A stretch of 64,000 bases of DNA, from positions 1-64,000 of the forward strand of contig QLUR01000008.1 of the NCBI GenBank assembly GCA_018725565.1, given 5' to 3'. Positions within the stretch are counted from its first letter, which is position 1, and each line of letters opens with the position of its first letter. The notes under the pieces are model-generated. The model saw only the letters and a list, made by a program, of their open reading frames with translations, did not search any database and had not been told where the DNA came from. Made by a program: the position numbers and the translations under genes. Of this stretch, positions 45,162 through 51,372 are shown piece by piece. Source of the DNA: Bacillota bacterium (lineage in GTDB: Bacteria; Bacillota; Dethiobacteria; Dethiobacterales; Dethiobacteraceae).

Positions 45162-45297
45162 AAATATGCGGAATTATGTAAAGTAATGCAGCTTTTATTA
45201 CTATTTTTTTTTGCCATGCGGCAGGATTTTTTTTTTCTGCGGCGAAAATAGTTTCAGGTGCAAGAAACACCTGGGAAAACAGGAAATTTTGTCGAAA

Positions 45298-45377
45298 AAG
45301 GCAAACCTGCCGAAAGGCAGGGGCGCAAAACCGCGGGCCTAAGGCTTGAAAGGGCTAGGGCAGCCGGGTTGCCGGCC
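45298..45377 (+). ncRNA. cyclic di-GMP-I (GEMM-I) riboswitch
   Basis: The stretch has the conserved GEMM-I core in order: GGCAAACC at about 45300, the hairpin CCTGCC-GAAA-GGCAGG with its GAAA tetraloop, GGCGCAAA-ACC, CGCGGGCCTAAGG with the CCTAAG tetraloop receptor, and CAGCCGGGTTGCC at the end. It is in the leader of flgB. The aptamer binds c-di-GMP, the signal for the switch between motile and attached life. A switching region follows at 45394-45430. Confidence 0.92.
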
Positions 45378-45393
45378 AGGAACAAACAGGCAA

Positions 45394-45430
45394 CTCTAGG
45401 CTCGTGTCCTAGGGTTCTCTTTATAGGAGG
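45394..45430 (+). promoter_or_regulatory. expression platform of the c-di-GMP riboswitch
   Basis: Two exclusive hairpins share one strand. Bases 45394-45400 pair with 45408-45414 (7 pairs, loop CTCGTGT). Alternatively TCCTA (45407-45411) pairs with TAGGA (45424-45428), covering the ribosome binding site AGGAGG of flgB. This predicts control of translation start, not termination. Confidence 0.7.
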
Positions 45431-45436
45431 GGGATT

Positions 45437-45853
45437 GTGTTCACAGAGCTTTGGTCTGACCACGCTTTTCTCGCCCTGCACAAAGGGCTGGACGCCGCCG
45501 CGAAGCGCCAGCGCGTGACATCCCATAACCTGGCGAATCTCAACACGCCCAATTTTAAACGCTCCGAGGTGTCTTTTGAGGCGCAGCTGCGGAACAGCCT
45601 GGCCGGGAGCGGGCGGTTGACGCTGGAGGTAACGCACCCGCGCCATATCGGCCGGCAGGCGGCTGTCGACGAGGTGCGGCCGCGGGTCCTGCGGGACAAC
45701 AGCACTACGATGCGGGCCGACGGCAACAATGTGGACGTTGACCGCGAGATGGCGGCCCTGGCGTCAAACCAGCTGATGTATAACGCCATGGCCCAGCTGG
45801 TTAATGAGAAGTACGGCCTGCTGCGTTATGTTATTCATGAAGGGAGGCGCTAA
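45437..45853 (+). CDS. flgB: flagellar basal-body rod protein FlgB
   Basis: 138 residues. N-terminal ALHKGLDAAAKRQRVTSHNLANLNTPNFKRSEVSFE carries the rod signature; the C-terminal VDVDREMAALASNQLMYNAMAQLVNEKYGLLRYVI is the matching helix. Forms the proximal rod with FlgC and FliE. GTG at 45437 follows AGGAGGGGG. First gene of the basal-body/export operon and directly under the c-di-GMP riboswitch. Confidence 0.95.
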   Translation: MFTELWSDHAFLALHKGLDAAAKRQRVTSHNLANLNTPNFKRSEVSFEAQLRNSLAGSGRLTLEVTHPRHIGRQAAVDEVRPRVLRDNSTTMRADGNNVDVDREMAALASNQLMYNAMAQLVNEKYGLLRYVIHEGRR

Positions 45854-45856
45854 GCG

Positions 45857-46270
45857 GTGCAGATTTTCCGGGCTATGCAGATTTCGGCTTCCGGCCTGAC
45901 GGCCGAACGCTTCCGCCTGGACCTGATTGCCAACAATATTGCCAATGTTCATACGACCAGGACGGAGCAGGGCGGCCCGTTCCGCCGCAAGTCGGCCGTG
46001 TTTGCGGAAAGTTTGCAGGACGCGCGCCGGGGCCTTGGCGGGGGGGTGCGCGTGGCGCAGGTTCTTGCGGACCGGACTCCGCCGCGGCTGGTTTTTGAAC
46101 CGGAGCATCCGGACGCTGACGCGGAGGGCTACGTCGCCTATCCGAATATCAACATGGTGCAGGAAATGGTGGACATGATTACGGCTACGCGTGCTTATGA
46201 GGCTAATGTGACGGCGCTCAACGCCTCTAAGAGTATGTTCCTGAGAGCGCTGGAAATCGGACGCGGGTAG
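45857..46270 (+). CDS. flgC: flagellar basal-body rod protein FlgC
   Basis: 137 residues with MQISASGLTAERFRLDLIANNIANVHTTRTEQGGPFRRKSAVF at the N-terminus and YVAYPNINMVQEMVDMITATRAYEANVTALNASKSMFLRALEIGR at the end. Second proximal rod protein. GTG after GGGAGGCG, 3 bases after flgB. Confidence 0.95.
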   Translation: MQIFRAMQISASGLTAERFRLDLIANNIANVHTTRTEQGGPFRRKSAVFAESLQDARRGLGGGVRVAQVLADRTPPRLVFEPEHPDADAEGYVAYPNINMVQEMVDMITATRAYEANVTALNASKSMFLRALEIGRG

Positions 46271-46281
46271 GTGAGTAAACG

Positions 46282-46584
46282 ATGAAGGTGATGCCGGTCA
46301 ACCCTTTTGTGCCGGTTATGATGCAACAGCCGGAGGCCGGGCGGGAGCTTCCGCCGGCGGGGGCGGCTGATTTCAGCCAGATGCTGCGGGGAGCGCTGGC
46401 CGAGGTAAATAAGCTGCAGCAGGATGCCGCTGAAGCGGCCAGGAATCTGGTGCTGGGGGAAGCGCAAGACGTCCACCAGGTGATGATAGCCATGGAGCAG
46501 GCCAGGCTGGCCATGCAGCTGACGGTTCAGCTCCGCAACAGGCTGGTGGAAGCATATCAGGAAGTTTCCCGCATGCAGATCTGA
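46282..46584 (+). CDS. fliE: flagellar hook-basal body protein FliE
   Basis: 100 residues; the C-terminal two thirds (DFSQMLRGALAEVNKLQQDAAEAARNLVLGEAQDVHQVMIAMEQARLAMQLTVQLRNRLVEAYQEVSRMQI) is the FliE signature. It joins the MS ring to the rod. GTAGGTGAG lies before the ATG. Confidence 0.94.
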   Translation: MKVMPVNPFVPVMMQQPEAGRELPPAGAADFSQMLRGALAEVNKLQQDAAEAARNLVLGEAQDVHQVMIAMEQARLAMQLTVQLRNRLVEAYQEVSRMQI

Positions 46585-46694
46585 GCTGGCCGCTTTTTTG
46601 GGAAAGTAATCCGGAGAACTGCGGTTAACTGTAATATTTCCGCATTTTTTGCACTCAGCGCCGCGTGGCGCCCGGAGAAGATGAGGTGATGTAT

Positions 46695-48257
46695 TTGACC
46701 GAGAAGCGGGGAGCCTTTGGCTGGCAGGCAGCCCCTGCCAGATGGCAGGCGTTAAGCGGTTCGAAAAAGCTGGCTGCCCTTGTGCTGGCAGCGGCGTTGC
46801 TGATGACTCTCATTTTTCTGGGGCAGGTTATCGCCAGGCCCCGGATGGCCTCGCTGTTTACGGGGCTGGAGCCGGCGGAGGCCGGACGGATTGTGGAGAA
46901 GTTAAAAGAGCTGGCCGTCCCTTACTCCCTGGCGGACGAAGGCCGGACGATTTTGGTGCCGGCGGGGCGGGTGTACGAGATGAGGATCCAGCTGGCCGGC
47001 GCGGGGACACTGGTTGGCGGCGCCGCCGGTTTTGAGCTCTTTGACCAGACCAGGCTCGGGGCCACTGATTTCAACCGCCGCATTGACTTCCAGCGTGCCC
47101 TGCAGGAGGAGCTGCGCCGTACCATTGTCCAGCTGAACGAGGTGGAGCAGGCCAGGGTGCACCTGGCTCTGCCTGAACCGAGTGTCTTTGTCCGCGAGAC
47201 GGCGGCTCCCTCGGCCTCGATCGTGCTGAAGCTGCGACCTTTCTCCGAGTTGAGGCAGGAACAGGTGCGCGGGATAGTTTTCCTGGTGGCCGGGAGCGTG
47301 GAGGGATTGCTGCCGGAAAATATCACGGTGGTTGATACACGGGGCAATATTCTGAATGCTGAGATTGTCGCCGCGGACCCGGCGGGGCAGGCGGCGGAAG
47401 CAAGTTTGCGCCAGCTGGAAGTCAGGCGCGGCTTTGAACGCGAGCTGGAGCAGCGCGTCCAGCGCATGCTGGAGCGGGTGTACGGGCCGGGTCAGGCACT
47501 GGTGATGGTGACGGCGGAAATGGACTTTGACTCCCGGGAGACTACGACGGTTACGTTTGCTGATGAGGGCGTCCCGCGCAGCAGGACGGCGGTGGAGGAA
47601 ACTTTCCGGGGTGAGGGAGCCCTGCCGGCCGAAGCGGGGACGGCTGCCAATATCCCGGGCTACGTTTTTGCCGGTGCGGGCGGGGAGAGCGAATACACCC
47701 GCAGCGACGAGACGGTTAACTACGAGATTGACGAAACAAGGGCGAGGGAGCTGACGGCTCCGGGACGCCTGCTACGTTTACATACAGCCGTAGTTTTAAA
47801 CGACAGGGAAGGCGGACTGACCGAAGCGCAGCTCCAGCAGTCCCGGGAAGTAGTGGCCGCGGCCCTTGGTTTTCAGGAGGAACGCGGGGACAGCATTAAC
47901 GTCCAGGGCATGAACTTTGAAACAGGGTACCTGGAGGAGGCGCGGGCGGCGATGGAGAGGGCTGCCCAGGCCGAGCAACAGCGGCAATATATCACGTACG
48001 GCGTTTTGTTCCTGGCCGGCCTGATTTTGCTGTTCATGCTGCTGCGGGCTTTCCGGCGCTGGCGGGAGGACAGGGTGGAGCGGGAGCTGGCTGCTCTGCA
48101 GCTGCAGGCTGCCGTGCCGGCGCTGGCGACAGGGGCGGAAGGGGAGCTGCTGCAGCAGTCCGGGGAACAGCGGCTGCATCAGCGCGTCAGGCATCTGGCG
48201 GAGAAGGAGCCTGATATGACGGCTTATCTTATCCGGACTTGGCTGGTGGAAGAATGA
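46695..48257 (+). CDS. fliF: flagellar MS-ring protein FliF
   Basis: About 520 residues with two membrane helices (about 24-46 and 432-452) and the large ring-building part between. Marks: MASLFTGLEPAEAGRIVEKLKELAVPYSLADEGRTILVPA, AGFELFDQTRLGATDFNRRIDFQRALQEELRRTI, VARVHLALPEPSVFV-like segment and NYEIDETRARELTAPGRL. TTG at 46695 was chosen because AGGTGA lies 5-6 bases before it; an ATG at 46689 is too close to the site but possible. It forms the ring in the membrane on which FliG and export proteins build. Confidence 0.94.
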   Translation: MTEKRGAFGWQAAPARWQALSGSKKLAALVLAAALLMTLIFLGQVIARPRMASLFTGLEPAEAGRIVEKLKELAVPYSLADEGRTILVPAGRVYEMRIQLAGAGTLVGGAAGFELFDQTRLGATDFNRRIDFQRALQEELRRTIVQLNEVEQARVHLALPEPSVFVRETAAPSASIVLKLRPFSELRQEQVRGIVFLVAGSVEGLLPENITVVDTRGNILNAEIVAADPAGQAAEASLRQLEVRRGFERELEQRVQRMLERVYGPGQALVMVTAEMDFDSRETTTVTFADEGVPRSRTAVEETFRGEGALPAEAGTAANIPGYVFAGAGGESEYTRSDETVNYEIDETRARELTAPGRLLRLHTAVVLNDREGGLTEAQLQQSREVVAAALGFQEERGDSINVQGMNFETGYLEEARAAMERAAQAEQQRQYITYGVLFLAGLILLFMLLRAFRRWREDRVERELAALQLQAAVPALATGAEGELLQQSGEQRLHQRVRHLAEKEPDMTAYLIRTWLVEE

Positions 48258-48270
48258 GGTGTGGCAAGTT

Positions 48271-49278
48271 ATGGCCCGTGGCAAGATAGGCGGGGTAAAA
48301 AAGTCCGCAATTCTTTTGATGGCACTCGGTCCGGTTCTGTCGGCCAAGATTTTGCGGCATTTTAACGAAGCGGACATCGAGAAGATTTCGCTGGAAATCG
48401 CCAATACCACCAAGGTCGAGGTTGAGGCGGTTGAGGATGTGCTGGAAGAGTTCCTGCTTCTCAACCAGGCACAGCGCTACCTGTTGGACGGCGGCTTTGA
48501 GTATGCCAAAACTTTGCTTGAACAAACTCTCGGTGCGCAAAAAGCCAATGAGATAATTAAAAAGTTAAAAGAAGCGTCGCAAATCCGGCCCTTTACATTT
48601 GTGCGCAAGGCTGACCCCAAACAGTTCATTAATTTGATCGCCCAGGAACATCCGCAGACTATCGCCCTGATTTTGGCTTATCTTGACCCGGAGCAGGCTT
48701 CCAAGGTTCTTTCCGGATTGCCAGACGAACAGCAGGCCGATATTGCCAGGCGGATCGCCCTGATGGACCGGACCTCACCGGAGGTGCTGAAGCTTGTGGA
48801 GAGCGTACTGAAGGAAAAGCTTTCCACGGTCGTCCAGCAGGACTTCGCGGCCGCCGGCGGGATTCAGGCGCTGGTAGACATTTTAAACAACGCTGATCGG
48901 GCCACGGAAAAGCTGATTCTGGAAGAACTGGAGAAGGACGACCCGAAGCTGGCCGACGAAATCAGGAAGAGAATGTTTATCTTTGAAGATATCAACTCTT
49001 TGGATAACTCTTCCATCCAAAGGATCATCCGGGAGGTTGACACCAAAGATCTGGCACTGGCACTGAAAGGCTCCAGCGAAGAAGTCAGGGAGCGTATCTT
49101 CCGCAATGTTTCCAAGCGTGCCGCGGAGATGCTGCGCGACGACCTGGAAGTTATGGGGCCGGTCCGCCTGCGCGAGGTGGAAGAAGCGCAGCAGCGCATT
49201 GTGGCTGTGATCCGCAGGCTGGATGAATCAGGCGAGATTATCCTGGCCAGGGGGGGAGATGACGCGATTGTTGTCTAA
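48271..49278 (+). CDS. fliG: flagellar motor switch protein FliG
   Basis: 335 residues. KIGGVKKSAILLMALGPVLSAKILRHFNEADIEKISLEI at the N-terminus, the middle EHPQ motif in FINLIAQEHPQTIALILAYLDP and the C-terminal torque helix with DLALALKGSSEEVRERIFRNVSKRAAEMLRDDLEVMGPVRLREVEEAQQRIV. It links MS ring and rotor and takes torque from MotA. ATG at 48271 follows GAGGTG by 8 bases; a GTG 12 bases upstream adds an unneeded start. Overlaps fliH by 20 bases. Confidence 0.96.
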   Translation: MARGKIGGVKKSAILLMALGPVLSAKILRHFNEADIEKISLEIANTTKVEVEAVEDVLEEFLLLNQAQRYLLDGGFEYAKTLLEQTLGAQKANEIIKKLKEASQIRPFTFVRKADPKQFINLIAQEHPQTIALILAYLDPEQASKVLSGLPDEQQADIARRIALMDRTSPEVLKLVESVLKEKLSTVVQQDFAAAGGIQALVDILNNADRATEKLILEELEKDDPKLADEIRKRMFIFEDINSLDNSSIQRIIREVDTKDLALALKGSSEEVRERIFRNVSKRAAEMLRDDLEVMGPVRLREVEEAQQRIVAVIRRLDESGEIILARGGDDAIVV

Positions 49279-50059
49279 TCTCATCAAGAGCGGCCGTATC
49301 AGGCTGGCACCCTCTGTACATCAACTGGAGGCGAAGTTGCCGCCCCTGCCCGCCGGCGGAACCCGGGACGGTGTGCCGGAGAGCGGGCGGGAGTGTCAGC
49401 TTGAGCCAGACGACCTGCGGGAAGAAACAGAAAGAAAATGCGCGGAATTATTGTCCGCGGCGCTAAGGGAGCGGGAGGCCCTTCTGGAGCAGGCCCGCGT
49501 GGAAATAGAAACCCTGAGGGAAGACGCTCGTCAGGACGGCTGCGGTGCCGGTTACCTGGAAGGCTTGGCCGAAGGGCGGAGGGACGCCGAAAAGCTGCGG
49601 GCAGAGGCGGAAGAGTTGATGAGGGAAGCGAAAGGCCTGCTCCGGGAACAGCTGCTCCGGCTGGAGCCGGAAATTGTGCGCCTGTCAGTGCTCATCGCGG
49701 AGCGGTTGCTTGGCCGGCAACTCTCGCTGCTGCCGGAAACAATCGTGTCGATTGTTTCGCAGGTGCTGCAGGAAGCCCATCAATACAGGGTGGTGCTGGT
49801 CCGCGTCCACCCGGAGGACCTGCCGGTTTGTCGAGCCTTCGCCGGGGAGCTGGCTGAGAACCTGCGGGAAAAAGCGGACCTTGACTTTATCGGGGATAAA
49901 TCCCTGACTGCCGGGGATTGCCTGGTGGAAACAGACGGTGCCCTGCTGGAATGTCGGCTTGGGGAGCGTTTGGGCGAGTTGCGGGAAGTTTTGCTTAAGT
50001 TCGCGGCACAGCAACAGGCCGGAGAACAGGAGCAACTCAGCGAGGTGGCGGCGCAATGA
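49259..50059 (+). CDS. fliH: flagellar assembly protein FliH
   Basis: 266 residues. A long charged helix (about 55-140; REETERKCAELLSAALREREALLEQARVEIETLREDARQDG with G-x3-G type spacing GAGYLEGLAEGR) is followed by the FliH/YscL C-terminal domain (LSVLIAERLLGRQLSLLPETIVSIVSQVLQEAHQYRVVLVRVHPEDL). It regulates the FliI ATPase. ATG at 49259 sits almost on the GGGGGGAG; TTG at 49268 with better spacing is the alternative. Stop overlaps fliI as ATGA. Confidence 0.88.
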   Translation: MTRLLSNLIKSGRIRLAPSVHQLEAKLPPLPAGGTRDGVPESGRECQLEPDDLREETERKCAELLSAALREREALLEQARVEIETLREDARQDGCGAGYLEGLAEGRRDAEKLRAEAEELMREAKGLLREQLLRLEPEIVRLSVLIAERLLGRQLSLLPETIVSIVSQVLQEAHQYRVVLVRVHPEDLPVCRAFAGELAENLREKADLDFIGDKSLTAGDCLVETDGALLECRLGERLGELREVLLKFAAQQQAGEQEQLSEVAAQ

Positions 50060-51372
50060 GCGGCCCGAGCCTGGCCCCGTATCTGGCGGAGGTCCGCAAT
50101 TTTCCGCCGGTCAAGCTGGTCGGCAAAGTGACGCAGGTCATCGGGCTGACGGTGGAAGTACGGGGACTGCAGGCCTGCATTGGCGAAGTTTGCCGGATCC
50201 AGCTGCAGGCGGGAGGCAGTCCGGTCCAAGCGGAGGTGGTCGGGTTTCGCGACGGCCATGTGCTGATGATGCCTCTCGGCGACCTGCGGGGTGTTGGTCC
50301 CGGCTGCCACGTTGTGCCGACAGGTAAAATGCTGGGTGTGCCGGTCGGACCTGCCCTGCTCGGGCGGGTGCTGGACGGCCTGGGTAACCCGCTGGAGGGG
50401 AGCTTGCCGGAAAACATTGACTGCCTGCCGGCGGATAACGCACCGCCCAACCCGCTGGAGAGGAGGCGCATCCGAGAAATCCTGCCGACTGGTATCCGGG
50501 CCATTGATTTGCCGCTTACTTGCGGGGAAGGGCAGCGCATCGGCATCTTTTCCGGCAGCGGTGTGGGCAAATCGACCCTGTTCGGCATGATTGCCCGCCA
50601 CAGCGGGGCCGATGTCAATGTTATCGCCTTAATCGGCGAGCGCGGGAGAGAGGTGCTGGACTTTATCGAGCGCGACCTGGGACCCGACGGCCTGGCCCGC
50701 TCCGTGGTGGTGGCTGTTACGTCGGACCGGCCGCCGCTGCTGAGAATCAAGGGAGCGATGGCGGCGACGACCATCGCCGAGTATTTCCGCGATCAGGGAA
50801 TGAAAGTGATGCTGATGATGGATTCTGTAACGCGCCTGGCAATGTCGCAGAGGGAGGTGGGGCTGGCTATCGGTGAACCTCCCACGACGAAAGGGTATAC
50901 ACCTTCGGTCTTCGCTTTGCTGCCGCGCCTGCTGGAGCGGGCCGGAACTTCCCGGGCCGGCTCTATTACCGGGTTTTATACGGTGCTGGTTGACGGCGAC
51001 GACTTTAATGAACCGGTGGCTGACGCCGTCCGCAGCATACTTGACGGGCATATCGTCTTATCCCGCGAACTGGCGGAGCGCAACCACTTCCCGGCTGTCG
51101 ATGTGTCGCGCAGTGTCAGCCGCCTGATGCCGGACCTGATTACGGAGCGGCACTCCTATTTGGCCGGTTCTTTAAGGGAATGCCTGGCCGCTTACCACGA
51201 GGCGGAAGACCTGATTAACATCGGAGCCTATATTGACGGGAGCAATCCCCGCGTGGACCGGGCCCGCAGGCTGATTGAGCCTCTGAACGCTTTTTTAAGA
51301 CAGGGCATGGAAGAAAGGGCGGAGTTTGACTCAAGCACGGCATGGCTGGAGCAAATTTTAGGCAGGGAGTGA
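50056..51372 (+). CDS. fliI: flagellum-specific ATPase FliI
   Basis: 438 residues with the F1-like ATPase core: GLGNPLEG, RIGIFSGSGVGKSTLFGMIARHSGADVNVIALIGERGREV (Walker A GSGVGKST), MLMMDSVTRLAMSQREVGLAIGEPPTTKGYTPSVFALLPRLLERAG (Walker B and family signature) and ELAERNHFPAVDVSRSVSRLMP. Powers unfolding and release of export substrates with FliH and FliJ. Starts in the fliH stop (ATGA). Confidence 0.97.
   Translation: MSGPSLAPYLAEVRNFPPVKLVGKVTQVIGLTVEVRGLQACIGEVCRIQLQAGGSPVQAEVVGFRDGHVLMMPLGDLRGVGPGCHVVPTGKMLGVPVGPALLGRVLDGLGNPLEGSLPENIDCLPADNAPPNPLERRRIREILPTGIRAIDLPLTCGEGQRIGIFSGSGVGKSTLFGMIARHSGADVNVIALIGERGREVLDFIERDLGPDGLARSVVVAVTSDRPPLLRIKGAMAATTIAEYFRDQGMKVMLMMDSVTRLAMSQREVGLAIGEPPTTKGYTPSVFALLPRLLERAGTSRAGSITGFYTVLVDGDDFNEPVADAVRSILDGHIVLSRELAERNHFPAVDVSRSVSRLMPDLITERHSYLAGSLRECLAAYHEAEDLINIGAYIDGSNPRVDRARRLIEPLNAFLRQGMEERAEFDSSTAWLEQILGRE

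Follow-up and report, generated by a model that had tools for sequence, protein, structure and literature searches.

A c-di-GMP-I riboswitch with a putative terminator-type expression platform upstream of flgB in a family of uncultured Bacillota

Results and discussion

Structural and comparative analysis of the flgB leader of a Dethiobacteraceae genome, carried out on a stretch of 64,000 nucleotides (contig QLUR01000008.1, positions 1 to 64,000, forward strand; hereafter the window), points to a c-di-GMP-I riboswitch that probably works as an OFF switch, c-di-GMP causing transcription to terminate prematurely before flgB. The aptamer, its site before flgB and a family-wide hairpin with a U-tract were all found computationally, and the proposed mechanism builds on these three elements. 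At low c-di-GMP, 45355-45373 would pair with 45389-45412 and keep both terminator arms apart, and in this antiterminator state RNA polymerase would read on into the basal-body operon. At high c-di-GMP, the aptamer would be held closed and 45392-45416 would form a terminator hairpin, upon which transcription would end in the U-rich tail (about 45417-45424) and the flagellar basal-body genes would not be expressed. The direction, in which the ligand closes the aptamer and the terminator switches the operon off, is suggested by modelling and backed by the flgB riboswitch of Clostridioides difficile.

Identity of the aptamer

An Infernal search, proposed in an initial annotation made from the DNA letters, returned the Rfam family RF01051 (c-di-GMP-I, GEMM-I) at 45290-45376 on the forward strand with 89.3 bits and an E-value of 2.2e-16 (cmscan), the gathering score being 35 bits. 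The match covers the full length of the model (1-87) with zero non-standard pairs and is the sole Rfam match at the gathering threshold within the window, so the complete GEMM-I core proposed in that annotation is indeed present, with its true start slightly upstream of the claimed one, at 45290 and not at 45298. P2 is placed by the model pairs at 45306-45311/45316-45321, and P3 is formed by a 5' strand at 45329-45339 and a 3' strand at 45359-45370. With respect to the Rfam family, the window copy carries G for A at 45323, as do several relatives, and nothing else about it is out of the ordinary; its score is among the best in the Dethiobacteraceae family sample.

The guanines at 45300-45301, within a GGCAAACC motif, are what we take to be the reference-aptamer position 20 that contacts the ligand, the exact numbering being immaterial as both candidates are G. 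Guanine at this position goes with c-di-GMP and adenine marks the cGAMP-binding GEMM-Ib (PMC6456294), and hence a c-di-GMP binder is expected, not a cGAMP binder. On the match in sequence and structure, the window aptamer is assigned to the c-di-GMP-I riboswitches, and we infer that it binds c-di-GMP.

Two further elements were observed around the 5' side of the aptamer. An inverted repeat (CAGGTG...CACCTG) at 45255-45273, about 16 nt upstream of the aptamer, may serve as an operator or form a 5' hairpin, and other inverted repeats (CTGCCGG...CTGGCAG type) occupy a similar position in three relatives (G002, G003 and G004). The 5' edge of the aptamer itself overlaps TTTTGTCGAAAA (45287-45298), which is similar to a Spo0A box or a degenerate sigma-28 -10 element; the corresponding site reads CCGATAA in G015, G005 and locus L023.

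Operon and genome context

The first gene under the riboswitch is flgB (45437-45853, forward strand; TIGR01396 FlgB, 116.5 bits, cut-off 59), whose GTG start at 45437 is separated from the aptamer 3' end by 60 nt and whose Shine-Dalgarno sequence (SD), AGGAGG at 45425-45430, lies 6 nt upstream of the start codon. It is followed on the same strand by flgC (45857), fliE (46282), fliF (46665), fliG (48259), fliH (49223) and fliI (50056), together spanning 45857-51372 by NCBIfam matches, of which that of fliH scores under its curated cut-off; fliS and a flgN-like gene are the upstream neighbours of the unit. The riboswitch was therefore correctly attributed in the initial annotation to flgB as the head of this flgB-flgC-fliE-fliF-fliG-fliH-fliI run.

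This leader of a motility operon stands in a genome with both GGDEF and EAL proteins (nine GGDEF matches above the cut-off and a single EAL domain), consistent with membership of the c-di-GMP-I class. Two further GEMM-I copies were found in the genome, upstream of a prepilin-like gene carrying an N_methyl motif and upstream of camelysin/TasA-like genes, and the three copies together fit the usual motile-to-sessile switch. On contig C31 (locus L003), tandem camelysin/TasA-like genes adjoin another c-di-GMP-I aptamer, and no clear terminator was seen between that aptamer and the gene.

A second flgB occurs in the same assembly (contig C30, 5433-5846; L107) and has no riboswitch. Its interpretation as a paralogue was rejected because its DNA is 93-95% identical to that of G010, a genome of another genus; going by this identity, C30 is probably a contaminating contig of the assembly.

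Distribution of the aptamer at flgB

The family sample comprised 20 genomes, an order-level search giving the same 20, of which 19 had a clear flgB. The aptamer lies directly upstream of flgB in 15 of these 19 and precedes the gene at 7 of 11 further flgB loci elsewhere in the class, so that the riboswitch is nearly universal at flgB in the family and lost in one genus, g6, whose flgB leaders carry no aptamer. These leaders (L094 of G008, L092, L093 and L107) retain TGTCGAAA, which reads CTCGAAA in L093, and that of L094 also has a P2-like GCCTGCCGAAAGGC with AGGAGG directly after it; on these remnants, the g6 leader is probably the relic of a riboswitch from which P3 and the platform were deleted. 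The TTTTGTCGAAAA element is also kept in these leaders.

Tandem c-di-GMP-I aptamers were seen before flgB at three loci, L104 (G014; 1972-2229), L136 (G087; 1977-2224) and L008 (2672-2911). In G014 the two aptamers are near-identical and the upstream copy has its own terminator. Such doublets have already been described for the c-di-GMP-I class (PMC9481103).

The downstream hairpin as a putative intrinsic terminator

Downstream of the aptamer, the segment 45392-45416 (forward strand) forms a hairpin, AACUCUAGG-CUCGUGU-CCUAGGGUU, of -11.1 kcal/mol. Its 9-bp stem (45392-45400/45408-45416) is real and, taken together with the U-rich tail, exceeds chance: among 3000 dinucleotide shuffles of the 60 nt at 45377-45436, one did as well. 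The tail at 45417-45424 is a degenerate terminator U-tract, CUCUUUAU, or UUCUCUUUAU when the last two stem bases are included.

Homologous hairpins, ACUCUAGG...CCUAGAGU or close variants, occupy the equivalent position before flgB in eight further genomes (G017, G018, G006, G013, the upstream copy of G014, G002, G003 and G004); the same hairpin scan found no such hairpin in the downstream copy of G014, in G015, G016 and some others. The hairpin is followed by UUUUUUU in G017, by UUUUCUUU in G018 and G006, by UUUUUAUUUUUUU in G013, and by UUUUUU in G002-G004 and the upstream copy of G014, and the spacing from hairpin to SD in single-copy leaders is 5-28 nt. Compensatory changes were sought in the terminator stem and none was found in the homologous set, the variation being of the G-U wobble type only; the conservation of the hairpin thus rests on position, sequence and U-tract. 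Since the hairpin of the relatives ends in U-runs well upstream of the SD, that of the window is best read as the intrinsic terminator of the family, with a weak tail, and not as an SD regulator. The earlier designation of this hairpin as the expression platform consequently holds, hairpin and U-run being conserved in relatives, while its role as a stem that frees the SD was not borne out.

Terminator scores of the d'Aubenton-Carafa type range from +10 to +25 in G017, G013 and G002-G004, from -5 to -15 in G018, G006 and G014, and from -25 to -48 in the window, the lowest of the aligned homologues; because E. coli supplied the training data for this scale, the sign of the score is no verdict for Bacillota. 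The window U-tract likewise has a T-score of 1.5-2.9 against 3.5-5.4 in the homologues, and the terminator is weakest there because two C's break up the tract. Termination at this weak tract is a putative step of the mechanism.

Two observations concern the leaders of relatives. At L096 (G012) and L099 (G011), a second, longer terminator-like hairpin before flgB, ACAGGAAGG...CCUUCCUGU with UUUU, comes after the first platform hairpin. In G018 (L088, ~1500), flgB has no ATG, GTG or TTG at the expected site past the SD, and an in-frame ACG or ATT would be possible.

Candidate antiterminator and predicted switching

The minimum-energy structure predicted for the free transcript has the aptamer 3' strand CUAGGGCA-GCC-GGGUUGCC (45355-45373, forward strand) paired, as the upstream arm of a candidate antiterminator, with GGCAACUC-UA-GGC-UCG-UGUCCUAG (45389-45412, forward strand), and this downstream arm overlaps both arms of the terminator. 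Duplex energies gave the antiterminator no statistical backing: 93 of 500 shuffles were as good as the window duplex, and in most genomes the duplex was no stronger than in shuffled controls. The pairing, which the window fold predicts with aptamer bases, is for this reason retained as putative.

With the aptamer forced to form, the predicted terminator pairing probability reached about 1.0 in transcripts to 45424 and to 45439 (in the latter, 0.57 for the outermost pair), compared with about 0.6 and about 0.2, respectively, when the aptamer was free; the contrast was smaller in a transcript to 45460, with 0.12 free and 0.37 forced. The forced aptamer raised the terminator probability also in G006, G013, G014 (upstream copy), G017 and G019, and the contrast was missing or reversed in G002-G004 and G018 under the same crude model.

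Alternative readings of the leader

The initial annotation had proposed two mutually exclusive stems sharing 45408-45411, one freeing and the other covering the SD, through which c-di-GMP would set flgB translation. UCCUA at 45407-45411 can by sequence pair with UAGGA at 45424-45428 (CCUA with UAGG 45424-45427), and the hairpin with which it would compete is real. As a specific feature, the second stem was rejected: a Watson-Crick match of the same length to the SD region arose in 264 of 2000 shuffles of the upstream part, the energy of the stem is -4.2 kcal/mol against -11.1 kcal/mol for the hairpin, and its pairing probability does not exceed 0.01 with a free aptamer, a forced aptamer or a forced antiterminator core. 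If anything covers the SD, it would be the pyrimidine tract 45413-45422 itself, since GGUUCUCUUU at that position may form a 10-pair, G-U-rich stem with GAGGGGGAUU (45427-45436). This pairing is predicted in both the free and the aptamer-forced ensembles and is thus ligand-independent in the model, and the mean predicted SD exposure is unchanged (0.35 free, 0.34 forced), so that ligand-dependent pairing of the SD was not seen in the prediction. Control of flgB translation, in which c-di-GMP alters SD exposure through 45407-45411/45424-45428 or 45413-45422/45427-45436 in competition with the hairpin, draws on the complementarity of the degenerate U-tract to the SD, on a hairpin that ends just 8 nt upstream of the SD and on class I riboswitches of Vibrio cholerae that work without termination (PMC6366702). 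It is nevertheless an improbable account, given the constant SD exposure, a chance-level stem and the hairpin of many relatives, which lies far from the SD with a U-run at its end.

Readings that join or discard the two modes were weighed in the same manner. The hairpin, U-tract and SD adjoin in the window genome (G000), G017, G018 and G006, and this arrangement would suit a dual readout in which a weak terminator acts on flgB together with masking of the SD by the pyrimidine tract, as in the transcription-translation dual c-di-GMP-I riboswitch Bc1 of Bacillus thuringiensis (PMC11218506). However, the SD to U-tract pairing appears in both states and is to be expected wherever a U-tract adjoins a purine-rich SD, which makes such a readout improbable. 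A related evolutionary course, that in the clade of these four genomes the terminator has come to lie on the ribosome-binding site of flgB and the window U-tract degenerated to an anti-SD, with one hairpin serving termination as well as translation control, is speculative and unlikely. The lowest terminator score among the aligned homologues, together with a sister genus (g6) that has lost P3 and the platform and has a P2-like hairpin alone, could also speak for a decaying switch, in which the aptamer is intact, the interrupted U-tract no longer terminates and flgB is read through whatever the c-di-GMP level; yet the 9-bp hairpin is intact and an aptamer score among the best of the family argues for selection, and we regard such decay as very improbable. 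Premature termination before flgB is hence the reading carried forward in the comparison below.

Comparison with known systems

By the present analysis, the direct regulation of the basal-body operon by c-di-GMP that has been tested in C. difficile would extend to a family of uncultured Bacillota. The flgB riboswitch of the window is of a kind already known from that organism and leaves the current view of riboswitches unchanged. In the C. difficile riboswitch Cd1/Cdi-1-3 before flgB, c-di-GMP terminates transcription in vitro and in vivo (PMC6366702, PMC6200980, PMC3649979), and the window has in common with it the aptamer class, the target gene and operon, a terminator-type platform and the expected OFF direction. 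The promoter of Cd1/Cdi-1-3 lies 496 bp upstream of flgB and its terminated product is about 160 nt (PMC3649979); the window differs in having its hairpin 8 nt upstream of the SD and an interrupted U-tract. Bc1 of B. thuringiensis likewise joins a class I aptamer to a terminator-type platform, but with two terminators 28 bp apart (PMC11218506), whereas the window has one hairpin, for which dual action is a candidate.
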